NCBI RefSeq assembly: GCF_002407185.1
Contig: NZ_CP023563.1
Span: 3,658,001-3,722,000, forward strand
Direction: 5' to 3'
DNA: 64,000 nucleotides
Source: Brachybacterium vulturis
GTDB lineage: Bacteria > Actinomycetota > Actinomycetes > Actinomycetales > Dermabacteraceae
Part shown: positions 7,852 to 59,985 of the stretch, one piece after another
Layout: every line of letters begins with the position of its first letter
Position numbering within the stretch: position 1 is the first letter of the stretch
Translations under genes and position numbers: made by a program
The notes under the pieces: model-generated
What the model saw: only the letters and a program-made list of their open reading frames with translations
Told to the model about the DNA's origin: nothing
Databases searched by the model: none

Positions 7852-7892
7852 ACTATATTGCGCACGGCATCGCCTGCGCACTATGTTGCGCA
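7852..7892. promoter_or_regulatory. Twin 13-bp sites in the XRE/MFS divergent region
   Basis: ACTATATTGCGCA at 7852-7864 is repeated as ACTATGTTGCGCA at 7880-7892, one mismatch, 28 bp start to start. The 6-bp palindrome TGCGCA occurs three times here (7859, 7875, 7887). The TATATT and TATGTT segments could be -10 elements for the MFS gene, and TATAGT on the other strand for the regulator. These are likely operators of the XRE-cupin regulator; inference from position and repetition. Confidence 0.5.
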
Positions 7893-7937
7893 GTGGTGGC
7901 ATCGTCCCTGCTCCCCACCCATAGAAGGAGGTCCCCC

Positions 7938-10991: not shown

Positions 10992-11004
10992 GATCTGCTC
11001 CTGC

Positions 11005-12384: not shown

Positions 12385-12580
12385 GGGGATCTCCGTCGTT
12401 GTCGTCGGTTCGTGCACTGAGCAGGGGCGCTCCGGGACAGCACACGATCACCGACCGTACCGGGATGTGCTCTGCGTCACGGGCGGTTCCGAGACTCTCC
12501 TTCGGCAACCGGGGCGAACCGGGCTACCGTGTGGTCTGCGCGGCGCCGCCGCCCGCGCTCATCGCGAGGAAGGACTGCTG

Positions 12581-13552
12581 ATGGCAGAGACGGGCAGCTG
12601 CTGCGCGGCCGGGCGGGCCGGCATGGAGCCGGCGGACGTCGACGGGGAGGCCCGCAGCGCTCGGAACGCCCCGGCGGACCCCTCGCTCCCCACCATCGCC
12701 GCTCCGGTCGCCGAGGTCCGATCCCGTGCCCAGCGGACCGTGCTCATCGAGGCCGGACCCTTCCGGATGGGCACCGAGGACGCGGACCGCAACCCCGGGG
12801 ACGGCGAGTCCCCCGTGCGCACGGTCGAGGTGCCTGCCTTCCGGATCGACGCCGCCTGCGTGACGGGCGCCGAGTTCGCGGCGTTCGTGACCGAGACCGG
12901 CTACGTCACCGAGGCCGAGGAGTTCGGCTGGTCTTTCGTGTTCGGTGCCCTGCTGGAGAAGGAGCTGCGCCGGGCGAGCCGCAAACCGCCGGGCACGCCC
13001 TGGTGGCGGGCCGTCGAGGGAGCACGCTGGGATGCGCCCGAGGGTCCGGGAACGGACCTCGCCGGGCGCGGCGGGCATCCGGTGGTGCACGTGTCGCTGC
13101 GGGATGCGGAGGCGTTCGCGCACTGGTGCGGGATGCGGCTGCCGCGGGAGGCGGAGTGGGAGAAGGCCGCCCGTGGCGGCCTGGACCAGGCCCGCTACGC
13201 GTGGGGCCAGGAGCTCACCCCGGGCGGCGAGCACCGCTGCAACATCTGGCAGGGCGCCTTCCCGGTGCGCAACACCCTCGAGGACGGCCACCTCGGCACC
13301 GCGCCGGTGCGCTCGTTCCCGCCCAACGCGTTGGGGCTGTACGAGGTGGCGGGCAACGTGTGGGAGTGGTGCAGCGACGTCTGGACCACGGGGCCTTCGG
13401 AGTCGCTCACCGGAGATGTGCGGGTGATGCGCGGCGGCTCGTACCTGTGCCATGACTCGTACTGCAACCGCTACCGGGTCGCGGCGCGCTCCTCCACCGC
13501 CGCCGAGGACGCCAGCGGGAACAAGGGGTTCCGCCTCGCGGTCGAGGCCTGA
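12581..13552 (+). CDS. Formylglycine-generating enzyme (SUMF1 family)
   Basis: A 323-residue FGE that oxidises the Cys of C-x-P-x-R motifs in sulfatases to formylglycine, the catalytic residue. The paired cysteines of true aerobic FGEs are present five residues apart (GGSYLCHDSYC, C290 and C295), followed by NRYRVAARSS. Further family motifs are FRMGTED, HPVVHVSLRDAEAF, RLPREAEWEKAARGG and GNVWEWCSD. No signal peptide is seen, which fits the cytoplasmic sulfatases in this window. A purine-rich GAGGAAGG precedes the ATG at 12581. The N-terminus (about 45 residues, with a Cys-Cys pair) is longer than needed for the fold. It is convergent with the next hydrolase, 4 bp apart. Confidence 0.92.
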   Translation: MAETGSCCAAGRAGMEPADVDGEARSARNAPADPSLPTIAAPVAEVRSRAQRTVLIEAGPFRMGTEDADRNPGDGESPVRTVEVPAFRIDAACVTGAEFAAFVTETGYVTEAEEFGWSFVFGALLEKELRRASRKPPGTPWWRAVEGARWDAPEGPGTDLAGRGGHPVVHVSLRDAEAFAHWCGMRLPREAEWEKAARGGLDQARYAWGQELTPGGEHRCNIWQGAFPVRNTLEDGHLGTAPVRSFPPNALGLYEVAGNVWEWCSDVWTTGPSESLTGDVRVMRGGSYLCHDSYCNRYRVAARSSTAAEDASGNKGFRLAVEA

Positions 13553-21982: not shown

Positions 21983-22095
21983 GGGGCTGCTTCTTCCGGT
22001 CGGTGAGGTCCGACCCACTCTAGATGAAACACCCGATGATTATTCGGTCCTGTCCAGATCGACGGCCGGAATCGTCGGCGGATCGCACATCGCGC

Positions 22096-36012: not shown

Positions 36013-37095
36013 TCAGCCGCCCGTCACCTCCACCCGCAGCACCCGGTCCCCGTTCGGCGCGGGGTCGCCCCGGCCGTCGGTGGTGTTGGTGAGCACGCAC
36101 AGCGATCCGTCGGGCGCGATCACCGCGTCGCGCAGGCGTCCCACCTCCTCCACCAGCAGCTCGGTCTGCGCCTGCGGATCCGCGAGCGGCACTGCGCGCA
36201 GCCGCTGCCCGCGCAGGCAGGCGATGAAGACGGTGCCGTCCTGGATCGCGATGCCGCTGGGGCTCGCCTCCGCCGGCGACCACTGCAGGAGCGGATCGGT
36301 CAGCCCCTCCTGGCCGCCGATGCCCTCGACGTCGGGCCAGCCGTAGTTCGCACCAGGTTCGATGAGGTTCAGCTCGTCCCAGGTGTTCTGCCCGAATTCG
36401 CTGGCCACCAGCTGCCCGTCCGCGGTCCAGGCGAGGCCCTGCGGGTTGCGGTGGCCGTAGCTGAACACCGGCGAGCCGGGGAAGGGGTTGTCCTCGGGCA
36501 CGGCGCCGTCGGGCGTGAGTCGCAGGATCTTGCCGGCGAGGGAGTCGGGGTCCTGGGCGGCGCGCCGGTCCCCCGCATCGCCCGTGGTCGCGAAGAGCAT
36601 CCCGCCCGGACCGATCTTCAGACGCCCGCCGTTGTGATTCGCGGCCGACGGGATGCCGTCGAGCAGCACCTCGGGCGCACCGAGCGCCAGCTGCCCGGGC
36701 GCCCCGGCGAGGGCGCGGCGCTCGATGCGGTTGCCGCTGTCGGTGGTGGCGTAGGAGAACAGCATCCCCTCGTGCGCGGCCAGACCCAGCAGGCCACCCT
36801 CCCCGCCGGGGGTGACACCGTCGATCACGCCGACCTCACGAGTGGCGCCGTCGGTAGTGAGCTCGAGGACCCGGGCGGTGTCACGCTCGCTGAGCAGCGA
36901 CGTCTGCCCGTGGAAGGCGATCGACCAGGGGGCCTGCAGGCCGGAGGTGAGGGTCTCGGTGTCGGCGGGTGCCGCCTCGGCACCCGGCTCGGGGCGGTCC
37001 GACGGCGCGGACCGCGAGGAGCCGGTGCAGGCGCTCAGCAGCCCCACGGCCACGAGCGGGACACTGCTCAGGAGAAGACGGCGAGACGTGGCCAT
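36013..37095 (-). CDS. Glucose/sorbosone dehydrogenase-family lipoprotein
   Basis: A 360-residue predicted extracytoplasmic lipoprotein: signal segment RRLLLSSVPLVAVGLLSAC with the lipobox Cys. The beta-propeller of soluble-quinoprotein-type sugar dehydrogenases is seen in APWSIAF, GGEGGLLGLAAH, NHNGGRLKIGPGGMLFATTGDAG, GHRNPQGLAW and ANYGWPDVEG. Whether PQQ is bound is uncertain, since many family members lack activity. AGGGAGG precedes the ATG. It lies 89 bp downstream of the sulfatase operon on the same strand and could be its last gene. Confidence 0.8.
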   Translation of the reverse strand: MATSRRLLLSSVPLVAVGLLSACTGSSRSAPSDRPEPGAEAAPADTETLTSGLQAPWSIAFHGQTSLLSERDTARVLELTTDGATREVGVIDGVTPGGEGGLLGLAAHEGMLFSYATTDSGNRIERRALAGAPGQLALGAPEVLLDGIPSAANHNGGRLKIGPGGMLFATTGDAGDRRAAQDPDSLAGKILRLTPDGAVPEDNPFPGSPVFSYGHRNPQGLAWTADGQLVASEFGQNTWDELNLIEPGANYGWPDVEGIGGQEGLTDPLLQWSPAEASPSGIAIQDGTVFIACLRGQRLRAVPLADPQAQTELLVEEVGRLRDAVIAPDGSLCVLTNTTDGRGDPAPNGDRVLRVEVTGG

Positions 37096-37184: not shown

Positions 37185-38696
37185 TCAGCCGCCGGCGGGC
37201 TCCGCCTGCCGGCCGGAGTGCTGCTGGAAGGCGTCGAGGTTCCAGGCGGGGCGCGGGCTGTCGGGGCCGGTGTACGGCGCATCCCCCACCTGGGCCTGGA
37301 GCTCGGCGAGCTGGGCGCGCAGTTCCTCGAGCACCGTCGCATGGGCGGGATCGCCGGCGAGGTTGTGCAGCTCGGCGGGGTCGGCCTGCAGATCGTAGAG
37401 CTCGTACTCGCGCTCGAAGATCCGCGCGGAGGCGCCCGGGGCGCCGAGCCCGTCGCCGTAGTAGTCGATGTACTTCCACCGCGGGGTGCGGATCCCGTAG
37501 TGGGCGGGGGCGTGGTGCTCGGGGTCGTCGTGCTCCCAGTAGCGGTAGTAGACGGCCTGGGGCCAGTCCTCGACCTGCTCGCCGCGCAGCAGCGGCAGGA
37601 AGCTGCGGCCCTGCTGGTCCGGCAGCGCCTGGTCGGGGTCGAGGCCGGCGGCCTCCAGCAGCGTCGCGGCGATGTCGACGTTGGTGAGCATCTCGCTGAC
37701 CTGCGAACCGGCCGGGATCTGCTGCGGCCAGCGCACCATCATCGGCATCTGCAGGGACTGGTCATACATCAGGCGCTTGTCGAACCAGCCGTGATCGCCG
37801 AGGAAGAACCCCTGATCGGAGGTGTAGACCACGATCGTGTCCTCAGCGATGCCGAGGGTCTCGAGGTGCTCGAGCACCCGCCCCATGCTGTCGTCGATCG
37901 CCTGGACCGTCTGCAGGTAGTCACGCATGTAGCGCTGGTAGTTCCAGCGCGCGCGCTCGTCCCGTCGCTCCGGGCCGCGCAGCTGTGGGGGCAGCTCCTC
38001 CTTGAGGTCGTCGGTCGTCAGATCGTCCGCGATGGACATGCGCACCCCCTGGATCGCGCGGGAGCGGGTGGAGTGGTCCTCCAGCAGGGTGTCCGGTTCC
38101 GGGATCGAGCCCAGCGGGTACAGGTCCGCGTGCCGGGGATGCGGCACCCAGGGCCGGTGCGGGGCCTTGTGGTGCAGCAGCAGGCACAGCGGCTGCTCGG
38201 GATGCTCGGAGCGCTGGTCCTCGAGCCAGTCGAGCGCCAGGTCGGTGACCGTGTCGGTCGCGTAGCCGGGGACCACGGCGCTGCCGTCCGGCCCGGTCAT
38301 CTCCGCATCCCAGTAGGTGCCCTGGCCGGGGTAGATCCGCCAGTCGTCCAGGCCGCGGGGCAGCGCCGCCTCGCTCTCGCCCAGGTGCCATTTGCCGAAC
38401 AGGCCGGTGCGGTACCCGGCCTGCTGCAGCGCCTCGGGGACGGTGGGCACCCGGTGGTCGAACTCGGTGTAGATCGTCGCGGCGCCGTTGACGTGGCTAA
38501 AGGTGCCGGTGAGGATGCTGGCCCGGGACGGGGTGCAGATCGAGTTCGTGCAGTACAGGGAGTCCAGCCGCGCCCCTTCGGCCGCGACGCGGTCCAGGTG
38601 CGGGGTGGAGTTCACGCAGCTGCCGTAGGCGGAGATCGCCTGGGCGGCGTGGTCGTCGGCGAGGACGAAGACGATATGGGGGCGCATGGCGGTCAT
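37185..38696 (-). CDS. Cys-type S1 sulfatase, sixth gene of the importer operon
   Basis: A 503-residue cytoplasmic sulfatase with ADDH metal ligands, the formylglycine motif CTPSR (Cys54), FGKWHLGE, LLHHKAPHRPWVPHP and YTSDQGFFLGDHGWFDKR. The KAPHR-W segment and GDHGW-DK loop resemble N-acetylglucosamine-6-sulfatases and mucin-type sulfatases, so a sulfated sugar is a reasonable guess. It overlaps the preceding sulfatase by 4 bp (ATGA), placing it in the six-gene unit that starts with the ROK gene. Confidence 0.87.
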   Translation of the reverse strand: MTAMRPHIVFVLADDHAAQAISAYGSCVNSTPHLDRVAAEGARLDSLYCTNSICTPSRASILTGTFSHVNGAATIYTEFDHRVPTVPEALQQAGYRTGLFGKWHLGESEAALPRGLDDWRIYPGQGTYWDAEMTGPDGSAVVPGYATDTVTDLALDWLEDQRSEHPEQPLCLLLHHKAPHRPWVPHPRHADLYPLGSIPEPDTLLEDHSTRSRAIQGVRMSIADDLTTDDLKEELPPQLRGPERRDERARWNYQRYMRDYLQTVQAIDDSMGRVLEHLETLGIAEDTIVVYTSDQGFFLGDHGWFDKRLMYDQSLQMPMMVRWPQQIPAGSQVSEMLTNVDIAATLLEAAGLDPDQALPDQQGRSFLPLLRGEQVEDWPQAVYYRYWEHDDPEHHAPAHYGIRTPRWKYIDYYGDGLGAPGASARIFEREYELYDLQADPAELHNLAGDPAHATVLEELRAQLAELQAQVGDAPYTGPDSPRPAWNLDAFQQHSGRQAEPAGG

Positions 38697-40300
38697 CCCT
38701 TCCCGGGGTCGGCTGCGCGGCCCCGGCTCGGCGGCTGTGCTGCTGGATCCGCGTCGGTGCCGCTCGCCCGATGCGTGCCCTCGTCCAGGCCGCTCATCGA
38801 GGGGTCGTAGTCGACCCGCCCGATGTCGTACATCGAGGTCATCCAGTGGAAGAAGTTGTCGCCCCGGTCCCGCAGGCGGTGGTAGAGGTCGCGGAGCATC
38901 CGCTCGCGAACGGCACGCATCTCGGGGTGCTCATAGCGGTTGTGCAGCTCGTGGGGATCGAGCTCGAGGTCGTAGAGCTCGTTGACCGATTCGGGGTTGA
39001 CCACCAGCTTGTACCGCTCGGTGCGCAGCATCCGCTGCGGGTGGGGGAAGTGGTGGCCGTGGAACTCGCACACGATCGCCTCGTCCCAGGCCACCTCCTC
39101 GCCGCGCACCAGCGGCAGCAGGGAGCGGGAATCCACCGCGGGCGCGGGGTCCAGCCCGCACCAGTCGAGCACGGTCGCGGTGGTGTCCAGCAGGCTCACG
39201 AACTCGCTGCGCACCTGCCCGGCAGGGGCGCCGGGCACCCGGATGATCCCGGCGGTGCGGTAGATGTCCTCGTACATCGCCGGGCCCTTGTCGTGCAGGC
39301 GGTGGGAGCCGGTGAACTCGCCGTGGTCGGAGCTGAACATGACGGCCGTGGAGTCGGTGAGGCCCAGCGCCTCCATCTCCGCGAGGACCCGGCCGATCTG
39401 CTCGTCGATCAGGGTCACGTACCCCTGGTAGACGGCGATGAGCTTGCGGGAGGCGGCCTCGCTCATGGTGTCGAAGGTCCAGTGCGCGGAGTAGTTCGCC
39501 TGCACCGGCGGTTTGCCGGCGAAGGTCTCCTGGATCGAGGCGGGCAGCTCGATCTGCTCCGGGTCGACCAGGTCGAAGTACTCGTCGGGGACGACGTACG
39601 GCAGGTGCGGGCCGAAGAAGTGCAGGGCGAGGTAGAACGGTGTCCCGTCGGCCGATTGCGTCGAGGCATAGGTGCGCAGCTGCTCGATCGCGCGGTCGGC
39701 GAGGTAGTGCTCGAAGGTCGCCTCGAGGGGTTGATGCAGCCGCGCCGCGAGCAGGTTGCCGGGCCCGCCGTTGGGCAGGGTGCCGCGCATCTGGTCGGAG
39801 ATCTCGTAGGGCGGCAGGCCGCGCTCTTCGAGGTAGGCGAGGTAGTCGGGGTGGTCGACGGGGTTGTGCCAACCCGGCAGCTCGGCGCCGTCGAAACCGT
39901 AGTCGGCCCGCAGCTTCTCGGTGCCGGCATGCCATTTGCCCAGCAGCGCGCACCGGTAGCCGGCCTCGCGCAGGGCGCGGGAGAAGGTGAAGCTGCCCTC
40001 GGGCAGGTCCTCCTGGTAGCCGACGTTGCGCTCGAAGTTGGCCAGCACGCGGTGCCGGAACGGCGCGGCGCCGGTGAGCACGCTGGCGCGGGCGGGGGTG
40101 CAGATCGCCGTCGGCGTGTACCAGCGCTCGAAGCGGGTGCCGGAGGCGGCCAGGGCATCCAGGTGCGGGGTGCGAGCCAGCGGGTTGCCGTAGCAGCCCA
40201 GGGTGTCGGCCCGGTGCTGGTCGGTCAGCAGGAACAGGACGTTGCGCGGCCCGGTGGTGCCGGGCCGCGCAGCCTCCTGCACGGGATCGGGTCGGGTCAC
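38693..40300 (-). CDS. Cys-type S1 sulfatase, fifth gene of the importer operon
   Basis: A 535-residue cytoplasmic sulfatase. TDQH supplies metal ligands, CTPAR with Cys67 is the formylglycine motif, then LLGKWHAG, FFGPHLPY and SSDHGEFTGSHRLHDKG. The start is a GTG whose overlap (GTGA) with the stop of the binding-protein gene forces translational coupling. The active-site strand and C-terminal VNELYDLELDPHELHNRY are typical of S1 enzymes. Different from its neighbour in subfamily, so the two may act on two positions or two substrates. Confidence 0.87.
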   Translation of the reverse strand: MTRPDPVQEAARPGTTGPRNVLFLLTDQHRADTLGCYGNPLARTPHLDALAASGTRFERWYTPTAICTPARASVLTGAAPFRHRVLANFERNVGYQEDLPEGSFTFSRALREAGYRCALLGKWHAGTEKLRADYGFDGAELPGWHNPVDHPDYLAYLEERGLPPYEISDQMRGTLPNGGPGNLLAARLHQPLEATFEHYLADRAIEQLRTYASTQSADGTPFYLALHFFGPHLPYVVPDEYFDLVDPEQIELPASIQETFAGKPPVQANYSAHWTFDTMSEAASRKLIAVYQGYVTLIDEQIGRVLAEMEALGLTDSTAVMFSSDHGEFTGSHRLHDKGPAMYEDIYRTAGIIRVPGAPAGQVRSEFVSLLDTTATVLDWCGLDPAPAVDSRSLLPLVRGEEVAWDEAIVCEFHGHHFPHPQRMLRTERYKLVVNPESVNELYDLELDPHELHNRYEHPEMRAVRERMLRDLYHRLRDRGDNFFHWMTSMYDIGRVDYDPSMSGLDEGTHRASGTDADPAAQPPSRGRAADPGKG

Positions 40301-41289
40301 TCCCCCGCCTTGGTGAACAGATCGAAGAGGTAGTAGTCCGCCGGTGCGACGGGCTCGCCCTCGATCTTGTCGTTCTCCTTGTAGTAGTCGTTCATGGCGG
40401 TCAGCCAGGTCTCGATGGTGCCCTTCTCGATCAGGGCGTCCAGATCCGCGGCGGTGTAGTACTCCGCGTTCGAGGCGTCGACCGCGGCCGCCTCGGGATC
40501 TGCCTCGGTCATCGCCGCGGTCAGCTCGATGGTCTTGTCAAGGTTCTCGACGCGGAAGTCCATCGCCGCACGCAGCACCTTGATCACCGCGAGGGTCGCC
40601 TCCTCGTTCTCCACCGGGAAGTCGTTGGAGGTGACCATGACGTTGGGGAACTGCATGATCTCGGCGAAGTCGGAGTTCTGGGCGAGCTCCACCAGATCCG
40701 GCACCTGCTCCTTGATGTTGTCGATCATCGGGTACCAGATGCCGGCGGCGTCGACCTGACCGGAGGAGAAGGCGGCGACCACGGTGGGCGGGTCCATGGC
40801 GACCTTCTCGATGTCGTCCATGCTCATGCCGGCGGCGTCCAGGGCCAGTCGCACGATCATGTCGCCGCTGGTGCCCTCCGGGATCGCGACCTTCTTGCCG
40901 GCCAGGTCCTCCATCGAGTCGATGCCGGGCTGGGCGATGACGCGGTCGGCCTGCCCGGAGCCGTTGACGGTGACGACCTTGGCCTTGCCGGAGGCGGGGA
41001 GCCACATGGCGCCGGGGCCGATGTAGCCGAAGTCGATGTCACCGGTGCCCAGGGCCTGGATCTGCAGCGGGCCGTTGGTGAAGGTCTGCAGGGTGACGTT
41101 GACCCCGTTCTCCTCCCACAGGCCCTGGTCCTCGGCGATGGCCAGCAGGCTGGCGCCGTTGAAGTCGGGGATGTAGCCGTAGTTCACGTCCATGGTGCCG
41201 GACCCGCCGGACCCGCCGCAGGCGGCGAGCGTGGTCAGGGCGGGGACGGCGGCCATGCCGCCGAGGAGGGTGCGTCGCGAGAAGGTCAT
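40297..41289 (-). CDS. ABC substrate-binding lipoprotein (SsuA/TauA/AtsR type)
   Basis: A 330-residue binding protein for a NitT/TauT-type importer. The N-terminus has twin Arg (FSRRTLLGG) and the lipobox LAAC. The mature part begins MDVNYGYIPDFNGASLLAIAEDQGLW and holds IAQPGIDSMEDLAGKKVAIPEGTSGD, typical of sulfonate/nitrate binding proteins. It follows the ATPase by 70 bp and is coupled to a sulfatase, so a sulfate ester or other organosulfur ligand is likely. This mirrors the atsRBC sulfate-ester system known in Pseudomonas. Confidence 0.85.
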   Translation of the reverse strand: MTFSRRTLLGGMAAVPALTTLAACGGSGGSGTMDVNYGYIPDFNGASLLAIAEDQGLWEENGVNVTLQTFTNGPLQIQALGTGDIDFGYIGPGAMWLPASGKAKVVTVNGSGQADRVIAQPGIDSMEDLAGKKVAIPEGTSGDMIVRLALDAAGMSMDDIEKVAMDPPTVVAAFSSGQVDAAGIWYPMIDNIKEQVPDLVELAQNSDFAEIMQFPNVMVTSNDFPVENEEATLAVIKVLRAAMDFRVENLDKTIELTAAMTEADPEAAAVDASNAEYYTAADLDALIEKGTIETWLTAMNDYYKENDKIEGEPVAPADYYLFDLFTKAGE

Positions 41290-41359
41290 CGTGGGGTTCC
41301 AATCGGGTGGGACGGGCCCGGCGGCGGCTCTGCCGCCGGGGTGCTGCAGGGAGGGACGG

Positions 41360-42163
41360 TCACTGGTGGTAGACGGAGGTCCAGATCTCGTTGCGGATCC
41401 GGGCGAACTCCTCCGACAGCCGCACCTCCTCGGTGCGGGGGTAGGGCAGATCCACGTCGATGATCCGGTGGATGCGGCCGGGCTTCGCCGCCATCACCAC
41501 GACGCGGTTGGCGAGGAATGCGGCCTCGTCGACGTCGTGGGTGATGAACATGATGGTGCGCTTGTCCTGCTCCCAGGTCTGAAGCAGGTGCTCCTGCATG
41601 CGCACCCGGGTCAGGGCATCGAGCGCCCCGAAGGGTTCGTCCATCAGCAGGATGGAGGGGTTCATGGCGTAGGCGCGGGCGATGGCGCAGCGCTGCTTCA
41701 TCCCGCCGGAGAGGGTCTTGGGCAGCGAGTCGGCGAAGTCGCCGAGGCCCACCATGTCGATGAAGTGCTGGGCGCGCTCGCGACGCTCCGCGGCGGGCAC
41801 CCGCGCGGTCTTCAGACCGAATTCGACGTTGTCGCGCACGGTCAGCCACGGGAACAGCGCGTACTGCTGGAAGATCACGCCGCGCTCGGGGCTGGGCCCG
41901 CGCACCTCGGCGCCGTCCACTTTCGCGCTGCCGGAGGTGGGCTCGTCGAGGCCGGCGAGGATGTTCATCAGCGTGGACTTGCCGCAGCCGGAGGGGCCCA
42001 CCACGGTGATGAACTCGTTCTCGGCCACGTCCAGGCTCACCCCGCCCAGCGCCTCGAAGCGCTGCCCGGCCACGACGAAGTGCTTGGTGATGTCCTGGAC
42101 CTGGATCTTGCGCTGGTCGGCGGGGAGGGTGGTGGTGTCCATGGGGGTCCTGTTCGCGGTCAT
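41360..42163 (-). CDS. ABC transporter ATPase (SsuB/TauB type)
   Basis: A 267-residue ATPase: Walker [10 protein letters not shown] near residue 56, Q-loop [12 protein letters not shown], signature [14 protein letters not shown], Walker [13 protein letters not shown] and H-loop [17 protein letters not shown] is characteristic of the nitrate/sulfonate/taurine group. It overlaps the permease gene by 4 bp upstream. Confidence 0.9.
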
Positions 42164-42990
42164 CGGCGCTCCTGCCACTGGGTCGCGCGGGCCTCGATCG
42201 CCAGCAGGGTGCGGTCCATGACGAAACCGAAGATGCCGATGACGAGGATGCCCACGAAGATGGTGGGCAGGTCGTAATAGATCTGTGCCTGCTGCATGCG
42301 GTAGCCCAGCCCCTGCTGGGCGGCGATCAGCTCGGCGGCCACCACGGTGGCCCAGGCGGAGCCGAGGCCCACCCGCATGCCGACGAGGATGAACGGGGTC
42401 GAGGCGGGCACCACCACGCGAGCGAAGATGGTGCCGTCCTTCGCCCCGAGCACGCGGGCGGCGTTCAGCAGGGTCTTGTCCACCTGGACCACGCCCTGGA
42501 AGGTCGAGATCACGCAGGCCAGGAACGAGGCCAGGAAGATCACGAAGATCTTGGGCTGCTCGCCGATGCCCATCAGCACGATGGCCAGCGGGATGATCGC
42601 CAGCGGCGGGATGGTGCGGAAGAACTGCACCCAGGGCTCGAACAGGCCGCGCGCCCAGGTGTACCAGCCCATCAGGAAGCCGACGGGGATGGCCAGCGCG
42701 GTGCCCAGCAGGAAGCCGCTGAACACGCGCATCAGTGAGGCCGCGATGTCCTTGAACAGGGTGCCGGCGGCGGCCAGCTCGATCAGCGCCAGGATCACGG
42801 CGGGCGGGCCGGGGATCTGCAGCCCCATCAGGGACAGCAGCCACCACAGGCCCAGACCCAGGAAGACGGTGACGATGTTCAGCACCAGCAGGGTGGGCAC
42901 CTTCTTGCGGCCGGTGTCGACGTCCGGCGGGGCAGCGGCGGTGGCCTCCTCGTCGGCGGTGGTGATCGCAGCGGTGGGGTCAGCGGACAC
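42160..42990 (-). CDS. ABC transporter permease (SsuC/TauC type)
   Basis: A 276-residue permease with about six helices and the EAA loop ([34 protein letters not shown]). [29 protein letters not shown] is typical of the sulfonate family. I set the start at the GTG at 42990, which has AAGGAGG at good spacing, because no ATG lies near this site. That start is 11 bp inside the ROK gene, so the ROK gene is part of the same transcript. Confidence 0.85.
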
Positions 42991-44233
42991 GGAGTCCTCC
43001 TTCGGCCGGGTGGGGCAGGATCGCCGCCCGGGCGGGACGGTGGCGGGAAGAGGGGTGGTCGGCGGTGCGCAGGGCGGCGATGGCACCGCGGGCACCCTGC
43101 TGGGGGCTGGAGTCGCCGATGCGCACCTGGACCTCGGTGCCGGTGAGGCACTGACGGGCCAGGGCGGTGCGCAGGGCGGGCAGGACGGGGCCCAGCAGCG
43201 CCCCCACCTCGCCGGCGATGACGATCTCCGCCGGATCCACCATCAGCGCGGCGATGCCGAGGGCGCGGCCGACGGCGCCGGCCAGCTCGGTGGCGAGCTC
43301 GAGGGCGCGGGGGTCGTGCCGGTCGAGGGCGGCGGCGAAGTGCGCGAGCTCGACCCCGTCCTGGTCCCCCTCCCCGTCCCGGTCTCCGTCCCCGTCGATC
43401 TGCTGCCAGGCGGCGATGACGGCTCCCTCGGAGGCGACGGTCTCCAGGCAGCCCCGTCGGCCGCAGCGGCAGTCGCGTGCGGTGGCGGTCTCATCGGCGA
43501 TCAGGTGCCCGATCTCGCCGGCCAGCTGGTGGGCGCCGCGCAGGGCGGTGCCGGCGCCGAGCACCGCGCCGCCGATACCGGTGGACAGGCGCAGATAGAC
43601 GATGCTGAGATCGTCCTCCCCGGCGAGGGTCGCCTCGTACAGGGCGGCGAAACGGATGTGGTGGTCCACCAGCACGGGGCAGCCGAATGCGTCCGCGAAC
43701 AGCTCGCGGATCCGGGCCCGCACCAGATGGAAGGGCTCCATGGAGGTCTCCGCGACGGAGAAGCCGTGCCAGCTGGCCGAGTTGGGGCCCGGCAGGCCGA
43801 TCCCGATGCCGGCGAGGAACTCCAGATGCACCTCTCCCACCGCGAGGTCGCGGATGGCGGCCAGCGTCTGCTGGACCCGTGCCTCCCAGCCAGCGCCGGT
43901 CGAGTACGTCGCGACGGTCGAGGCGATGACGTCCCCGGCGGAGTTCGCCAGGCACACCGTGGCGGTGGTGTGACTGAAGTCGATGCCCACGAAACGGACC
44001 GCACCGGGATGGATGCCCAGCACCTCGGCCGGGCGGCCGCGCCCGCCCGGGGAGCGCTGCTCGGTGACGGTGATGATGCCCTGGTCGAGCAGGCCGCCGA
44101 GGATGTCGGAGACGGTGGTGCGGGTGAGCCGCAGTGCCTCGGCGATCTCCCCGCGGGTGAGCTTCCGCCCGCGATGCAGCAGCGCCAGCATGTCCGCTCG
44201 ATGCTGGTCCCTGACGCTCCATTGCCGGTCCAT
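42980..44233 (-). CDS. ROK-family transcriptional regulator
   Basis: A 417-residue regulator: an N-terminal winged helix (residues 10-65, [22 protein letters not shown]) and a sugar-kinase-like ROK domain with [22 protein letters not shown] and the zinc site GHLIADE...[10 protein letters not shown]. In the kinase-like domain an Asp/Gly-rich insertion ([14 protein letters not shown]) is present. The 3' end overlaps the permease gene by 11 bp, making it the first gene of the importer-sulfatase operon and probably its sensor. ROK regulators often sense sugars, consistent with a sulfated sugar. Confidence 0.85.
43355..43398 (-). repeat. Hexamer repeat coding an Asp-Gly run in the ROK protein
   Basis: Imperfect repeats of the CCGTC(C/T) type encode alternating Asp-Gly/Arg/Glu residues in the ROK kinase-like domain. 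The insertion looks like a surface loop. Repeat copy number could vary in frame. Confidence 0.5.
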
Positions 44234-44259: not shown

Positions 44260-44286
44260 TATTCCGTCCAGTATTCGACAGAAATA
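44260..44286. promoter_or_regulatory. AT-rich imperfect dyad upstream of the ROK operon
   Basis: TATTCCGTCC (44260-44269) and GACAGAAATA (44277-44286) face each other about 27 bp upstream of the ROK start, in a stretch much richer in A+T than its surroundings. Only six of ten positions pair directly, more if one base is skipped. ROK operators are often AT-rich dyads of this kind; likely promoter/operator of the operon. Confidence 0.4.
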
Positions 44287-44411: not shown

Positions 44412-44493
44412 CGCCACCAGACTTCTGCCCCCAGGTGATGACTGAGCGCCTCACAGCCGTGCAACGCTCGTATGCGTCAGATTTCCGGTGGCG
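44412..44493 (+). repeat. 82-bp imperfect palindromic repeat, copy C
   Basis: 82 bp with the same inverted ends (CGCCACC ... GGTGGCG) as copy B and the same length. The central block CACAGCCGT is also shared with copy B. It lies in the 412-bp gap between the ROK and SDR gene starts. The rest of that gap (44294-44411 and 44494-44645) holds nothing else I can identify. Confidence 0.75.
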
Positions 44494-54710: not shown

Positions 54711-55570
54711 GCCTGCTCCCCCTTTCCGATGGCCGTGCTGAGGCGGTTGGTGGACAGGACCACTGCGGCCACCACCAGGCCGGGCAGCAGGGTCAGCCAC
54801 CAGGCGGTGGCGACGTAGTCGCGGCCCTCGGCGATCAGCAGCCCCCATTCGGGGGTGGGCGGCGGTGCGCCGTAGCCGAGGAACCCGAGGGTGGAGATCT
54901 GCAGGATCGCCGAGCCCAGCTGCAGCGCGGCGAGCGCGGTGACGGGGGCTGCGGAGTTGGGCAGGATGTGGCGCCACAGGATGCTCGGCAGGGTCCCGCC
55001 GGAGCCGAGGGCGGCCTCGACGTACTCGCTGCGCCGCACCGCGATCACCCGGGAGCGGGACAATCGCGCGAAGGTCGCGATCGAGGTGATGCCCACGGCG
55101 ATCGCCGCGTTGGTGGTGCCGAAGCCCAGCAGGATCACCACCGACAGCGACAGCAGCAGGCCGGGGATGGCCAGCAGCACGTCCACCCCCCGCATCAGCG
55201 TCTCCTCGACGGCGCCGCCGACGGTCCCGGCGATCGCCCCGATCGTGGTGCCGGCCACCAGGCCGACGGCGACGGCGATCAGTGCGGCGGTGATCGAGTG
55301 GGAGGCGCCGTGGACCACCCGGGCGAAGACGTCGCGGCCGGTCGCGTCGGTGCCGAACCAGTGCACGACGCTCGGGGATCGGAGCGCCTCGGTGCTCGAG
55401 GCGGTGGGGCTGTACCCGGTGAACAGACCCGGCGCCAGCGCCCAGACGAGGGCGAGCAGCAGCACCAGGGCGGAGAGCACCACCGTGGGGCGCAGGGCCG
55501 GGCGGCGAGCCCGCCGGGCCCGCTGACCGGTGCGCGCGCGGGCGCCGTCGGTGAGGGTCACGGTGCTCAT
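54707..55570 (-). CDS. ABC permease, DppC/OppC type
   Basis: A 287-residue permease with about six helices. The periplasmic segment HWFGTDATGRDVFARVVHGA is a hallmark of the DppC branch, and the EAA loop is YVEAALGSGGTLPSILWRHILPNS. ATGA overlap with both the upstream permease and the downstream ATPase. Confidence 0.9.
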   Translation of the reverse strand: MSTVTLTDGARARTGQRARRARRPALRPTVVLSALVLLLALVWALAPGLFTGYSPTASSTEALRSPSVVHWFGTDATGRDVFARVVHGASHSITAALIAVAVGLVAGTTIGAIAGTVGGAVEETLMRGVDVLLAIPGLLLSLSVVILLGFGTTNAAIAVGITSIATFARLSRSRVIAVRRSEYVEAALGSGGTLPSILWRHILPNSAAPVTALAALQLGSAILQISTLGFLGYGAPPPTPEWGLLIAEGRDYVATAWWLTLLPGLVVAAVVLSTNRLSTAIGKGEQA

Positions 55571-56550
55571 CGGGCCGCCACCGCCTCGCGGCGGGTCGGG
55601 GCGGCGGTCGAGGAGCGGAGCCGGGGATCCAGCACCGGGTAGAGGAGGTCCACGACGAGGTTGATCACCACGAACACCACGGCGGAGAGCACCACCACCG
55701 CCATCAGCACCGGGGTGTCGCGGGCGGCGACCGCCTGAGCCGTCACCAGGCCGACGCCCATCCTGCCGAAGACGGTCTCGGTCACGACCGCGCCGCTCAC
55801 CAGCTCCCCGAACAGCAGTCCGGCCATGGTCAGAGCCGGCAGCGTGGCGTTGCGGGCGACGCTGCGCGTCAGCAGCCACCGGGTCGAGGCGCCACGAGCA
55901 CGGGCCACGGCGACGAAGGGCTCGGCGGAGACCTCGTCGATCGAGCGGATCAGCACCTGGGCCAGCGGGGCCGCGATCGGGATCGCGAGCGTGAGCACCG
56001 GCAGGATCAACGACTGCAGCGGGCTCGCGTTCAGCACCGGCACCAGTCCCAGCCGGAAGGAGAACACCTGCAGCAGCACGATCCCGATCCAGAACACCGG
56101 CAGCGAGACCATCAGCGGCGGCAGGCCCCGCAGAGCGCTGCGCAGGGCGCGGGTGGCACCCAGGTGGCGCAGACCGCCGTGGGTGGCGACGACGGCGATC
56201 ACCACGGCGACAGTCACCGCGACCAGCAGCCCCAGGGAGGCCAGGGCCAGCGTGGAGGGGAGCGCCGCGGCCAACAGCGCGGAGACCGCCGCGCCGGTCT
56301 GCACGGAGTAGCCGAGATCCCCGCGCAGGAAGGAGGTGACCGTCTCGAGGAACTGCACGAGCGCGGGACGGTCCGCCCCGTAGGCGGCGCGGATCTCCGC
56401 GAGCTCTGCGGCGCTCAGCCCCAGGTCGGGGCTGCCGTAGCGAGCCAGCACCGCATCCCCCGGCAGGGCTGTGAGCATCACGTACGCAGCGATGAAGGCC
56501 AGGGAGAGGACCACTGCGGCACCGCCGATGCGGCGCAGGAGGTAGCGCAT
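55567..56550 (-). CDS. ABC permease, DppB/OppB type
   Basis: A 327-residue permease starting MRYLLRRIGGAAVVL, with a long periplasmic loop (DRPALVQFLETVTSFLRGDLGYSV), family-typical PVFWIGIVLLQVF, and the EAA loop FVAVARARGASTRWLLTRSVARN. It follows the binding-protein gene by 7 bp and overlaps DppC. Confidence 0.9.
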   Translation of the reverse strand: MRYLLRRIGGAAVVLSLAFIAAYVMLTALPGDAVLARYGSPDLGLSAAELAEIRAAYGADRPALVQFLETVTSFLRGDLGYSVQTGAAVSALLAAALPSTLALASLGLLVAVTVAVVIAVVATHGGLRHLGATRALRSALRGLPPLMVSLPVFWIGIVLLQVFSFRLGLVPVLNASPLQSLILPVLTLAIPIAAPLAQVLIRSIDEVSAEPFVAVARARGASTRWLLTRSVARNATLPALTMAGLLFGELVSGAVVTETVFGRMGVGLVTAQAVAARDTPVLMAVVVLSAVVFVVINLVVDLLYPVLDPRLRSSTAAPTRREAVAAR

Positions 56551-56557
56551 CGGGGCC

Positions 56558-58207
56558 TCACCCCTTCAGCCAGGCGTCAAAGAAGCTGGGCCGGCCCACG
56601 GACTCGGTGGCGAAGCCCTGCAGTGCCTCGGTATATCCGAAGACCTGCGGCTCCTCGAACAGGGGCAGGATGTACGCCTGCTCGGCGAGATGTGCCTGGG
56701 CGGCGGCCGAGGCCTCGGTGCGGCCCTCCGTCCCCGGGGTGGAGGCGATCGCGGCCAGCAGCTCGTCGAGCTCGGGATCGCCCACGCTGCCGTCGGGTTC
56801 GGTGTTCAGCAGCACGTTGCGGTTCTCCGAGGCGTACTGGGACTTCAGCACGTCGAAGTCGGCGCGTCCCACCATCGAGTGGTACATCTGCACCGTCCCG
56901 GGCTCGGCGCGCGCGGCGTTCTGGGCGGCCTGGTCGCCGGGCAGCAGCTGCACGTCGACCCCGAGCGCGGCCAGCTGCTCCTGGAGCATGGTGACGACCT
57001 CCTTCGAGCGGGGCTGCGGGAGCGCCTCGTTGACGGTGAGGGTGAGCGTCCGGCCGTCCTTCGCGCGGATGCCGTCGGCCCCGACGACCCAGCCGGCCTG
57101 ATCGAGCAGCGAGGCGGCGAGCTCGGGGTCGTGGACGTAGTGCTCGGAGGTGTCCGCGTGCCCGAGCGCGGTGGCGGCCAGGGCTCCGGTGGCCAGCGGA
57201 TAGTTCTCGGTGAACAGGGTGTCGACGATCGCCTGCCGATCGATCGCGGCGATCAGGGCCTGCCGGGTGCGGAGGTCCTCGAGAGCGGGGTCGCGGAAGC
57301 GGAAGTTCAGGCCGTTGTTCACGCCGTTGGTGGCGGCGGCGTGCAGCGAGAGGCCCTCGGCCGCGAACCGGGGCTCGTCAGGGGCTTCGATCTGACGGGC
57401 CAGGTGGGCCTGTCCCGAGGTGACGGTGCCCACGCGCACGCTGTCCTCGGCGGCGACGAGGATGTCGATCCCGTCCAGATGGGCGCGGCCGGAGTGCTGC
57501 AGGGAGGCGGGCGCCCAGGCGTAGTCCTCGCGCACGGTGAGCGAGATCCGGGTGCCGATCTGCTCCTCGGCGATCACGAAGGGGCCGGAGCCGATGATCT
57601 CCGCGGCGTTGCCGGGACCGAACTGCTGCCCGTCGCGGTCCAGCGTCGCGGAGGAGAGCAGGCCCGAGTTGATGGTGGAGACGGCCTGGGCGAAACCGGG
57701 CGCGGGGGCGGTGAAGTGGAAGCGGACGGTGACGGGGTCGAGGACCTCGCCGTGGTCGTAGTTGTTGATCGCCTCGGAGACGGTCAGAGCGCGCGCGGCA
57801 TCGCCGGTGCCGAAGAGGTCGATGTTCTTGACCACGTTCTCTGCGTCCAGCGGGGTGCCGTCGGAGTAGGTGACGTCCTCGCGCAGGGTGAAGGTGTACT
57901 CGGTGGCGTCCTCGTTGACCTCGGGCAGCGCGGTGGCGATCCACGGCTCCAGCTCGAGGGTCTCGGGATCCTGGCGCAGCAGGCGGTCGGTGATGTTGTT
58001 GACGATCCCGCCGTTGGGGTAGAAGCCGGCCGATGGCGGGTACAGCGTGGTCCAGGTCTGCGGCTCCAGATAGGTGAGGGTGCCGCCGGTGACCGGGGTG
58101 CCGTCGGCCGGTGCACCGCTGCTGCTGGCACCGCATGCCGCGAGGGTGGCCAGAGCCGGCATCGAGATGCCGAGAGCGAGTGCGGACCGACGGGTGAAGG
58201 ACGCCAT
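56558..58207 (-). CDS. ABC substrate-binding lipoprotein, family 5
   Basis: A 549-residue extracellular solute-binding protein of the DppA/OppA family. The signal has FTRRSALALGIS and lipobox LAAC. Mature features include GGTLTYLEPQTWTTLYP, TLREDVTYSDGTPLDAENVV, RQALIAAIDRQAIVDTLF and SLTVREDYAW. The family carries peptides, nickel, sugars or oligosaccharides. The sulfatase 215 bp upstream on the same strand hints that the ligand could be sulfated; inference. GGGAG precedes the ATG at 58207. Confidence 0.87.
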   Translation of the reverse strand: MASFTRRSALALGISMPALATLAACGASSSGAPADGTPVTGGTLTYLEPQTWTTLYPPSAGFYPNGGIVNNITDRLLRQDPETLELEPWIATALPEVNEDATEYTFTLREDVTYSDGTPLDAENVVKNIDLFGTGDAARALTVSEAINNYDHGEVLDPVTVRFHFTAPAPGFAQAVSTINSGLLSSATLDRDGQQFGPGNAAEIIGSGPFVIAEEQIGTRISLTVREDYAWAPASLQHSGRAHLDGIDILVAAEDSVRVGTVTSGQAHLARQIEAPDEPRFAAEGLSLHAAATNGVNNGLNFRFRDPALEDLRTRQALIAAIDRQAIVDTLFTENYPLATGALAATALGHADTSEHYVHDPELAASLLDQAGWVVGADGIRAKDGRTLTLTVNEALPQPRSKEVVTMLQEQLAALGVDVQLLPGDQAAQNAARAEPGTVQMYHSMVGRADFDVLKSQYASENRNVLLNTEPDGSVGDPELDELLAAIASTPGTEGRTEASAAAQAHLAEQAYILPLFEEPQVFGYTEALQGFATESVGRPSFFDAWLKG

Positions 58208-58292
58208 GGAGGAACTCCCAAGGGGGTGGAGCGGACGGAGGATCACGGCGGCTGGCCGCGATCCCCAGTAGACCACCAAGCCCAAAGTTTTC

Positions 58293-58309
58293 CTATGCGG
58301 AGTTCATAG
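58293..58309. promoter_or_regulatory. Short dyad upstream of the family 5 ABC operon
   Basis: CTATG (58293-58297) and CATAG (58305-58309) flank a 7-bp centre about 85 bp upstream of the binding-protein ATG, in an AT-richer patch. A promoter or operator for the ABC operon is likely here. It means this operon could be transcribed independently of the sulfatase. Confidence 0.3.
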
Positions 58310-58422
58310 CGTGACATATGGCCCGTGTGGCGGGGCCTCCCCCGGGGCCGTTCACGTCGGCGCCGGACCCGGCGGGCCCGCCCGGGATCGGGCGAGCACT
58401 GCGAGCACCGTCCGCCCTCAGC

Positions 58423-59985
58423 TCACGACGTCGCCCGCCCGGGCCCCAGTCCTCTTTGGGCGTGATCGTCCAGGACGTCCTGCCAGTCGATGACGCCCTG
58501 CTCCTCGCACCACCGGGCATAGATCTGCTCGAGCTCGGCGACCAGCTCCGGGTGCTGCTGGGCGAGGTCGTGGGCCTCGATGCGGTCTGTGGTGAGGTCG
58601 TAGAGCTCCCACGGGCTGCCCCATTCACGCACCAGCTTCCAGCCGCCCCGACGGACGGCGGCGTTCCCGATGTGCTCCCAGCACAGCGTCCGCTCCGGGC
58701 CCGTCGCCTCGGGGTGCCGCCAGGAGTCCAGCAGGCTCCGCCCCGCCCCGATGGGGTCGGCGCCGACGATCTCGAGGACGGTGGGCAGGATGTCCGTGAC
58801 GTGACCCAGGTCGGGGCTCACGGCGCCGCCGGCGGGGATCCCCCCGGCGGGCCAGGAGGCCAGGAACGGGGTGGAGATCCCGCCTTCATGGACCCAGCTC
58901 TTCCACTTCCGGAACGGGGTGTTGGAGACGGTGGCCCAGTTGACGCCGTAGCTCTGGAAGGTGTCCGCCGGGCCGGGCATGATCGCCGGATCGTTCCCGA
59001 AGCGCACCGGGTCTCCGGCGCGGGTGGTGCGGGGCTCCGTCGTCCGCGGGAAGTGCGGGTTGTCCGTCGGGAGCTCCTCGGCGCACCCGCCGTTGTCCGA
59101 GAAGAACAGCACCAGGGTGTCCTCGGCGACCCCGGTCTCCTCGAGCGAGTCCAGCACCGCACCGATCCCGCGGTCCATCGCCTCGACCTGGGCGGCATAG
59201 ACCGCCATGCGCTCGCTCTCCCACCGGGCATGCTCGCCCCACTCCGGGAGGTCCTGACCGGCGGCGACGTCATGGATCTCGCTGTACAGGCCCTCCCGGT
59301 GGAGCCCGTCGAGCCGCCGCTGACGCATCCCGTCCCAGCCCTCTGCGTAGCGCTCGCGGTACTTCGCGATCTCCTGCTCGCGGGCGTGCAGCGGCCAATG
59401 CGGGGCGGTATAGGTGAGCATCGCGAGGAAGGGGACCTCGGCCTCGCCCTGGCGGCGGATGAAATCGACCGCCCGCTGGGTGACATGGTCGGTGAGGTGG
59501 AAGTCCTCCGGCAGCTCCTGCTCGTCCACGCGCTCCTCGCCGTCCATGAGCCGGGGCCGGAAGTATCCCGAGGAGCCCTGGAGGATGCCATGGAACTCGT
59601 CGAACCCGCGCCGGGTCGGCCAGGTCTCGCCGGGGTTCTCGATATCGCTGCTCAGATGCCATTTGCCGAAGAGTCCGCAGGCGTACCCGCGCCCCGAGAG
59701 GCACTCGGCGATCGTGGGCACCTCGGTGGAGAGGGAGCCGGGGTAGCCGTGCGGGCGGTTGTCGGTGGTGAGCACGCCGATCCCGACGCTGTGCGGGTTC
59801 TGGCCGGTCATCAGGGCGGCGCGGGAGGGGCTGCAGCGGGGTGTCACGTAGTAGGAGCTCATGCGGATGCCGCGGTCGGAGAGCCGGGTGAGGTGCGGGG
59901 TGTCGATCTCGCCGCCGAACGGTGCGATGTCGGAGAAGCCGAGATCGTCGGCCAGGATGATGACGATGTGGGGTCGAGCGGTCAT
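58423..59985 (-). CDS. Cys-type S1 arylsulfatase-like enzyme
   Basis: A 520-residue cytoplasmic sulfatase of the arylsulfatase (AtsA-like) branch. ADDLGFSD metal ligands, CSPSR with Cys51, LMTGQNPHSVG, FGKWHLSSD, FFSDNGGC and the AtsA-type RKWKSWVHEGGISTPFLASWP. AGGAAAG precedes the ATG. It lies just upstream of the family 5 ABC operon on the same strand. Substrate not predictable beyond an aryl- or sugar-sulfate guess. Confidence 0.88.
   Translation of the reverse strand: MTARPHIVIILADDLGFSDIAPFGGEIDTPHLTRLSDRGIRMSSYYVTPRCSPSRAALMTGQNPHSVGIGVLTTDNRPHGYPGSLSTEVPTIAECLSGRGYACGLFGKWHLSSDIENPGETWPTRRGFDEFHGILQGSSGYFRPRLMDGEERVDEQELPEDFHLTDHVTQRAVDFIRRQGEAEVPFLAMLTYTAPHWPLHAREQEIAKYRERYAEGWDGMRQRRLDGLHREGLYSEIHDVAAGQDLPEWGEHARWESERMAVYAAQVEAMDRGIGAVLDSLEETGVAEDTLVLFFSDNGGCAEELPTDNPHFPRTTEPRTTRAGDPVRFGNDPAIMPGPADTFQSYGVNWATVSNTPFRKWKSWVHEGGISTPFLASWPAGGIPAGGAVSPDLGHVTDILPTVLEIVGADPIGAGRSLLDSWRHPEATGPERTLCWEHIGNAAVRRGGWKLVREWGSPWELYDLTTDRIEAHDLAQQHPELVAELEQIYARWCEEQGVIDWQDVLDDHAQRGLGPGRATS

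Follow-up and report, generated by a model that had tools for sequence, protein, structure and literature searches.

Within a 64,000-nucleotide stretch of the Brachybacterium vulturis genome (contig NZ_CP023563.1, positions 3,658,001 to 3,722,000; hereafter the window, in whose coordinates positions are given unless a locus or genome is named), we examined an operon of six open reading frames on the minus strand (37185-44233). It encodes a ROK-family regulator, the permease, ATPase and binding protein of an ATP-binding cassette (ABC) importer, and two sulfatases, here called S1 and S2. A sequence-only reading of this DNA had described a six-gene unit with overlaps of 11, 4, 4 and 4 bp and a single 70-bp gap, and this layout was borne out. 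Comparison with related genomes suggests that the operon is probably a ROK-controlled unit that imports small sulfated saccharides and desulfates them in the cytoplasm. Its features are given below, and the Pfam labels of all six proteins score above the Pfam cut-offs.

44262..44283, minus strand: predicted ROK operator, TTCTGTC-GAATACTG-GACGGAA, 28 bp ahead of the start codon of ROK, with 0 mismatches to TTCYGTC-N8-GACRGAA
42980..44233, minus strand: ROK-family transcriptional regulator with an N-terminal helix-turn-helix, 417 amino acids (PF00480, 127.7 bits, plus helix-turn-helix families)
42160..42990, minus strand: ABC importer permease, TauC/SsuC-like, 276 amino acids, GTG start (PF00528)
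41360..42163, minus strand: ABC importer ATPase, SaoA/NtrCD/TauB-like, 267 amino acids (PF00005)
40297..41289, minus strand: SsuA/TauA-type substrate-binding protein with a presumed RR-type lipoprotein signal, 330 amino acids (PF09084; TIGR01728)
38693..40300, minus strand: formylglycine-type sulfatase S1, predicted cytoplasmic, 535 amino acids, GTG start (PF00884, 158.2 bits; CTPAR)
37185..38696, minus strand: formylglycine-type sulfatase S2, S1_11-like, predicted cytoplasmic, 503 amino acids (PF00884, 175.6 bits; CTPSR)

The listed reading frame of the ROK gene begins at a TTG codon at 44464, but the ATG at 44233 is preferred as its start, because eight same-genus loci align from that ATG and diverge upstream of it except over a palindrome. 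Besides PF00480, the protein matches MarR_2 and HTH_20 above the Pfam cut-off, which gives it the domain make-up of a ROK regulator. The best NCBIfam models for the permease were SaoP, TauC and SsuC, each scoring under its equivalog cut-off, and the top models for the ATPase were likewise all under their cut-offs. Scanning the operon for sigma-70 promoters and terminators returned none, the scan being uninformative at this G+C content.

Conservation of the operon among actinobacteria

An alignment of 16 binding proteins, searched against named genomes, retrieved 273 binding-protein relatives, and the best 80 (51-96% identity) were examined. All counts given below out of 80 loci refer to these best 80 of the 273; several come from one genus and are not independent, and a few come from genomes already sampled in the genus and order sets. 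The nearest named relative belongs to Brachybacterium sp. 51_S65 (96% identical). By title, the loci derive from Brachybacterium, Agromyces, Microbacterium, Cryobacterium, Promicromonospora, Isoptericola, Cellulomonas, Streptomyces, Paractinoplanes, Nonomuraea, Microbispora, Saccharopolyspora, Amycolatopsis, Kribbella and others, with only actinobacterial names among them.

Permease and ATPase genes lay upstream of the binding-protein gene, in the same order, in all 80 loci, and one or both sulfatases adjoined the importer in 77 (both in 41, S1 only in 29 and S2 only in 7). Among the three loci that lack an adjoining S1 or S2, L096 has an S1 homologue upstream instead of in the usual place, the contig of L153 ends just past the binding protein, and in L107 (Pseudonocardia sp. 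MH-G8) neither S1 nor S2 was found beside the importer, ROK gene (tblastn) and operator that are present there. A co-directional ROK gene was located by tblastn directly upstream of the importer in 76 loci (missing in L091, L097, L121 and L153), and a profile search placed one within 4.5 kb in 77.

Closer to the window, S1 searches matched 18 of 58 genomes at E 1e-60, 17 of the 18 lying among the 36 genomes of the genus, its own included. The surroundings of 22 matches revealed the block of ROK, permease, ATPase, binding protein and S1 in six genomes besides the window's, with S2 next to it in four of the six, and genome G021 (L067) carries the block with S2 but without S1. All ten loci fetched from the order had a sulfatase beside the importer, even L076, whose binding protein is only 29% identical. 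This distant version (L076 6350-11366, genome G295) has a different sulfatase, an extra gene (7858-8661) between sulfatase and binding protein, and no ROK match that we could see. Conservation in related genomes had been set beforehand as a test of the proposal, and it holds locus by locus, though patchily among genomes. Judged from sequence comparison, the recurrence of the operon in the same order in other genera and families is more than chance.

A predicted operator upstream of the ROK gene

A single palindrome is kept in the aligned ROK upstream regions of all eight same-genus loci while its flanks diverge. When gapped palindromes were counted upstream of ROK in 76 loci, with no motif supplied, the commonest half-site was TTCYGTC with a spacing of 8. 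The full pattern, TTCYGTC-N8-GACRGAA, occurred in the 300 bp preceding ROK in 63 (up to 1 mismatch), 71 (up to 2) and 73 (up to 3) of the 76 loci, compared with 0, 0 and 1 for a reversed-pattern control in the same regions. We predict that this palindrome is an operator for the ROK protein near the promoter of its own gene. Across 22 whole genomes, 30 of 38 distinct sites fell at the known locus by our count by eye, while the reversed pattern gave 2 matches. Two of the eight other sites (in G422) precede a second ROK-S1 pair (L209), whose S1 is 73% identical; a site in G424, inside a long open reading frame, appears fortuitous. The second site in the window, at 51368 with 2 mismatches, is within chance expectation.

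ROK proteins of this system mostly carry D-x-G-H in place of the kinase motif D-x-G-x-T, together with an Arg after an N-N pair. This Arg was considered as a sulfate contact and dropped, since five or more other ROK proteins of the same genome have an Arg in this position or close to it, in a control where the motif was legible in only about half of 18 loci.

Glycosidase and maturase genes near the operon

Clustering of genes across the 80 loci gave two standout neighbour families, GH43 glycosidases and formylglycine-generating enzymes (FGEs), which profile searches in all frames detected in 48 and 40 loci, respectively. GH43 was found only with S1 (48 of 70 S1 loci versus 0 of 10 without S1, Fisher 3.9e-5; in full-flank loci alone, 39 of 56 versus 0 of 6, p 0.0016) and GH20 only without it (3 of 10, all three S2-only, versus 0 of 70, p 0.0015), values that are indicative, as they treat related loci as independent and include only 10 loci without S1, some of them short-flanked. 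The predicted ROK operator lay near the start of 33 of 54 GH43 and GH20 genes, 19 of which have their own copy and 14 share one with a divergent ROK gene (control 0). Two types of GH43 were recognised: the shorter has weak matches in the PDB to arabinanase-like entries and no NCBIfam match at 1e-10, and the longer is closest to endo-arabinanases, yet under their NCBIfam cut-offs. A crude signal-peptide rule was positive for 25 of 25 type-B GH43, 6 of 9 type-A GH43 and 3 of 4 GH20 frames; most of the tested glycosidases therefore look secreted.

All 42 FGE matches in the loci were on the operon strand, and 39 sit 0.9-4.4 kb past the start of the binding-protein gene. The window's genome has two PF03781 (FGE) matches above cut-off, one of them in the window, so that a candidate maturase is available to its sulfatases:

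12623..13552, plus strand: formylglycine-generating enzyme (FGE) gene, candidate maturase, not adjacent to the operon (PF03781, 248.5 bits)

Identity of the operon-linked FGE with this window gene was considered and rejected. Only 6 of 31 linked FGEs were nearer the window copy than the other genome copy (at 39112), and their median identity was 61.7% to the latter versus 53.4% to the former. The window FGE gene is divergent within a group (9219-13552) that also holds genes for a GH3 enzyme and a NamZ-type exo-muramidase. Downstream of S2, after 131 bp and on the same strand, lies a gene for a glucose/sorbosone dehydrogenase-like lipoprotein (36013-37053, minus strand; PF07995, 210.5 bits). 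As a candidate seventh member of the operon it was rejected, because tblastn at E 1e-15 matched it in none of the 33 genus and order loci and in none of the 80 named loci.

Predicted properties of the two sulfatases

The C-x-P-x-R motif is present as CTPAR at residue 67 of S1 and as CTPSR at residue 54 of S2, which, together with PF00884, gives both the sequence signature of S1-family formylglycine sulfatases. Each protein begins near its first core strand with no visible export signal, and no hydrophobic export stretch before that strand was found in 63 S1 and 39 S2 readable proteins; the crude signal-peptide rule was positive for 0 of 79 sulfatase frames. Both enzymes therefore look cytoplasmic, here and in relatives, in agreement with what had been proposed for them from the window. 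Scores against the choline sulfatase model BetC (TIGR03417) were below its equivalog cut-off for S1 and S2 alike (174.3 and 174.6 versus 433.45 bits).

S2 is closest to characterised members of S1_11: eight distinct PDB sequences matched it at E up to 1e-80, led by the N-acetylglucosamine-6-sulfate (GlcNAc-6-sulfate) sulfatase BT4656 (5g2v, 384.5 bits) and BT3177 (7p24, 370.9 bits), and its score against an L-galactose-6-sulfatase was 300.6 bits. D306 and R308 of S2 are kept in 47 of 47, and H399 in 46 of 47, of the rows that cover these sites (of 50 S2 rows); by our own assignment they are candidates for the His and Asp/Arg triad of S1_11. The consulted part of PMC10154612 describes a recognition triad for this subfamily in which His addresses O3 and Asp/Arg address O4. 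A 6-sulfated hexosamine or hexose is a reasonable candidate substrate for S2, with the chances for and against it about level.

S1 shares 61-94% identity with 21 homologues from several transporter contexts, and across 71 proteins the identity reaches 98.5% or more at 231 of its 535 positions. The structure most similar to its model (pLDDT 79.1) was the exo-2S-iota-carrageenan sulfatase PsS1_NC (Z 41.2, 27% identity in the structural alignment), which is also nearest by sequence, followed by an S1_25 sulfatase module and phosphonate monoester hydrolases (2vqr, Z 38.0). That S1 acts on a sulfated pentose is offered tentatively, as less likely than not.

The genome, a single contig of 3.80 Mb, contains 16 sulfatase-domain matches, of which four lie in the window and two more no further than 6 kb outside. 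One of those in the window (20546-22018, minus strand) has an SGSH_C domain. Another (58423-59985) adjoins a peptide-type ABC importer (SBP_bac_5, 56558-58285; permease, 55567-56550), and this minus-strand region (55567-59985) is a possible second importer-sulfatase pairing. Just beyond the window (G000:C1:3727193-3731238), sulfatase, GH20 and ROK genes stand side by side.

Predicted ligand site of the binding protein

The binding protein falls in the SsuA family (TIGR01728 SsuA_fam, 207.0 bits versus a cut-off of 163.5) and is not a TauA equivalog (TIGR01729, 73.6 versus 304.25 bits). By eye, its N-terminus reads as an RR-type lipoprotein signal. The AlphaFold model (pLDDT 87.0) was nearest TauA (6ssy, Z 28.9) and SsuA (2x26, Z 28.0), and binders of thiamine precursors (3ix1, Z 25.2, some 3 units lower) and of nitrate or bicarbonate followed at Z of about 24-25. 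Residues G73, G91 and S141 (our own position count) align with Gly61, Gly79 and Thr132, the main-chain sulfonate contacts of TauA, and in a profile alignment (same count) D115 aligns with Glu106 and W185 with Trp176; the TauA contacts are those given in the part of PMC6906117 consulted. Such a site suits an anion cradle that would hold a different organic part.

Other genomic settings of S1

S1 homologues with 52-73% identity occur in further settings within the genus and order (for each setting type, one to two examples were checked with Pfam or NCBIfam and the rest assigned by similarity). Sugar-porter MFS genes stand beside the S1 homologue in L031-L038, and a CUT1-type sugar importer with a GH51-like gene does so in L030 and L039-L043. 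In L024 a set of this kind lies downstream of the core operon, and in L026 a GH51-like gene flanks the core operon itself. An additional sulfatase is present in the CUT1 settings L024, L030, L039, L040 and L042, and L039 and L030 have a GH43 gene too. A third arrangement, seen in L209 (5376-11102; Isoptericola cucumis, reached via L137) and in a genus relative (L029, 4239-9965), places the operator between two divergent gene groups, one encoding an MFS transporter with an ALO-type FAD oxidase and the other ROK with an S1 homologue. L044 combines an S1 homologue with another MFS, and no ROK gene was found there.

At up to 2 mismatches, the operator was found upstream of ROK in L029, L030, L039, L040, L041 and L209. 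Because it precedes ROK in several CUT1 settings and in both MFS/ALO settings of S1, the same sensor appears to serve different transporters. In a tree of 45 S1 rows (26 of the 71 operon S1s, 16 from other contexts and 3 outgroups), L029 and L030 grouped among the operon S1s with weak support, and the deep forks do not settle the direction in which importers were swapped.

A proposed route for sulfated saccharides

The observed gene order and its conservation, the sulfatases without export signals, the conserved operator and the linkage to glycosidases suggest a route whose transport, ligand, enzyme activities, repression and order of steps would be as follows. The SsuA/TauA-type lipoprotein would capture a small sulfated saccharide outside the membrane, and the one permease and one ATPase would carry it in intact at the expense of ATP. 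The two cytoplasmic formylglycine sulfatases would then strip the sulfate inside, S2 probably attacking the O6 position of a sulfated hexosamine (GlcNAc-6-sulfate, for example) or hexose, and S1 a different sulfated sugar that may be a pentose. The ROK protein would bind the palindrome just upstream of its own gene and keep the operon repressed until the sugar, or its product after desulfation, becomes available. The same operator would in many relatives also drive GH43 or GH20 genes, whose mostly secreted products would release the sugar, and an FGE gene joining the operon would supply sulfatase maturation.

Confidence in this scheme differs between its parts. Import of a sulfate ester coupled to internal desulfation is very probable, and that the organic part of the ester is a sugar also seems likely, if somewhat less so. 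The sulfated-sugar interpretation, which had already been suggested from the window, gains strength from comparative evidence because glycosidase genes carry the ROK operator, because that operator also precedes gene sets in which S1 homologues are joined by CUT1 importers and GH51-like genes, and because S2 is closest to 6-O-sulfo-GlcNAc and L-galactose sulfatases. A dual role in carbon and sulfur supply is possible.

Alternative explanations and contrary evidence

The alternative that survives best is a sulfur-scavenging operon like Pseudomonas atsRBC-atsA, which would admit assorted aryl and alkyl sulfate esters and yield sulfate for cysteine under starvation, any sugar being incidental. 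An importer of the SsuA/TauA kind fits such a role, and two sulfatases per importer would suit a broad range of esters. A precedent comes from Rhodococcus qingshengii IGTS8, where, in the part of PMC8557817 consulted, a ROK protein beside an operon for a choline sulfatase (AtsA1) and TauD was 18- to 33-fold higher on dibenzothiophene than on sulfate, AtsA1 and TauD being raised with it; a ROK gene close to a sulfatase may thus be part of a sulfur-scavenging system. However, glycosidase genes have the operator in common with the present system, GH43 and FGE rank first among the neighbour families of the 80 loci, sugar importers accompany S1 homologues that lie behind this operator, and the large near-invariant fraction of S1 (231 of 535 positions) suits one substrate better than many. 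On balance, we regard sulfur scavenging as unlikely.

It is less likely still, and by some way, that S1, rather than being a sulfatase, hydrolyses phosphonate or phosphate esters like other members of its superfamily, with an importer for a phosphorus compound or for mixed substrates. Phosphonate monoester hydrolases are among the nearest structures to S1, and its invariant Asp27-Gln28 and Asp325-His326 resemble their metal ligands, but also those of choline sulfatase. The carbohydrate sulfatase PsS1_NC is nearer by about 3 Z units and by sequence, the importer family is of the sulfonate type, and S1 accompanies S2, a clear S1_11 relative, in 41 of the 80 loci. Finally, an importer for an unrelated ligand such as a thiamine precursor, with the sulfatases as mere neighbours, is highly improbable: NMT1/THI5-like proteins do include such binders and the fold matches (3ix1), but TauA and SsuA are the nearest folds and a sulfatase is kept in 77 of 80 loci and in 10 of 10 fetched from the order, one of them at 29% identity.

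Several observations count against import of sulfated saccharides followed by internal desulfation, to which the Rhodococcus precedent and the indicative nature of the Fisher values should be added. Occurrence is patchy: the order-wide search with the binding protein matched 14 of 396 genomes at E 1e-35, and in the phylum sample at least one of 396 matched at E 1e-60 (the window's own only, with five candidates scored per genome). In the binding protein, the amine-binding Asp205 of TauA is not kept, and no Gln was found in any of the 16 aligned rows at the stretch expected to hold the sulfonate-binding Gln30. Allowing up to 2 mismatches, no operator was found in the MFS sugar-porter settings (L031-L038) or in L042-L044, and 21 of the 54 glycosidase genes are without it, including two of the four GH20 genes. 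The longer, 23-base local form of the operator had no second site in the whole genome at up to 3 mismatches. Moreover, the window's genome has no GH43 above cut-off, and these two findings together leave the extracellular step unlinked here; because GH43 is missing, and because the nearest of its four GH20 matches is about 26 kb from the operon, the strain might scavenge sugars released by others.

Comparison with known systems

An importer coupled to a cytosolic sulfatase, and a ROK regulator combined with a transporter and an internal glycosulfatase, are each already known. In the first category, the atsRBC genes of Pseudomonas putida encode an SsuA-type ABC importer of sulfate esters that is coupled to the cytosolic formylglycine arylsulfatase AtsA, under sulfur-starvation control and alongside the alkylsulfatase dioxygenase AtsK. 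The present operon likewise has a binding protein, permease and ATPase with an adjacent sulfatase, cytosolic by prediction, but differs in its ROK regulator, its two sulfatases and, in relatives, the operator-linked glycosidases. In the second category, a glycosulfatase cluster of Bifidobacterium breve UCC2003, reportedly described by Egan and colleagues in 2016, is said to comprise a ROK-type regulator, a transporter, an internal GlcNAc-6-sulfate sulfatase and a maturase. It is similar in being actinobacterial and in joining these four functions, and we consider it a functional analogue. Its transporter is reportedly of MFS type, its maturase anaerobic and its sulfatase single, whereas here there are an SsuA/TauA-type ABC importer, two sulfatases and an aerobic FGE, and in relatives the operator is common to GH43 and GH20 genes.

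Other systems share single elements. The operon of Rhodococcus IGTS8 is also an actinobacterial sulfatase operon adjoining a ROK gene; it holds an annotated choline sulfatase and TauD, responds to sulfur source, and has no importer named in the consulted part of PMC8557817. In Bacteroides and Pedobacter, the S1_11 sulfatases BT4656, BT3177 and Phep_2827 carry out exo-acting 6-O-desulfation, and a figure legend on heparin loci includes MFS and ROK genes (PMC10154612, as far as the consulted sections go). The same sections place the reviewed carbohydrate sulfatases of gut Bacteroidota mostly outside the cytoplasm, most being called periplasmic; S2 belongs by likeness to the same subfamily but looks cytoplasmic and would be fed by an ABC importer. 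The importer fold resembles that of E. coli TauABC and SsuABC (PMC6906117, part consulted), with the desulfonation enzymes SsuD and TauD replaced here by sulfatases. The sequence-only reading had held the arrangement to be undescribed. A search of open-access papers found no description of this exact arrangement, but the B. breve analogue and the ROK gene beside the Rhodococcus sulfatase operon make that claim only partly right. What seems new is the combination of three features: an SsuA-type importer that apparently serves sulfated sugars, an operator shared by different actinobacterial families, and glycosidases that change together with the sulfatases.

Implications

In a broader reading, which we hold with no more confidence than doubt, these operons represent an SsuA/TauA-type importer family, found across many actinobacterial genera and dedicated to sulfated monosaccharides rather than sulfonates, within a modular regulon in which the ROK protein and operator stay constant, GH43 changes together with S1 and GH20 with S2, and the importer (SsuA-type ABC, CUT1 ABC or MFS) can be swapped. 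If this is true, S1 would be the first of a group of sulfatases that act on a pentose-like sulfated sugar released by GH43 or GH51 enzymes. The paired change of glycosidase and sulfatase gives testable predictions for the substrate of S1, and the predicted operator offers a handle for mapping such regulons. Actinobacteria would have a route by which sulfated sugars are taken up whole and desulfated inside the cell, so that both the carbon and the sulfur are kept.

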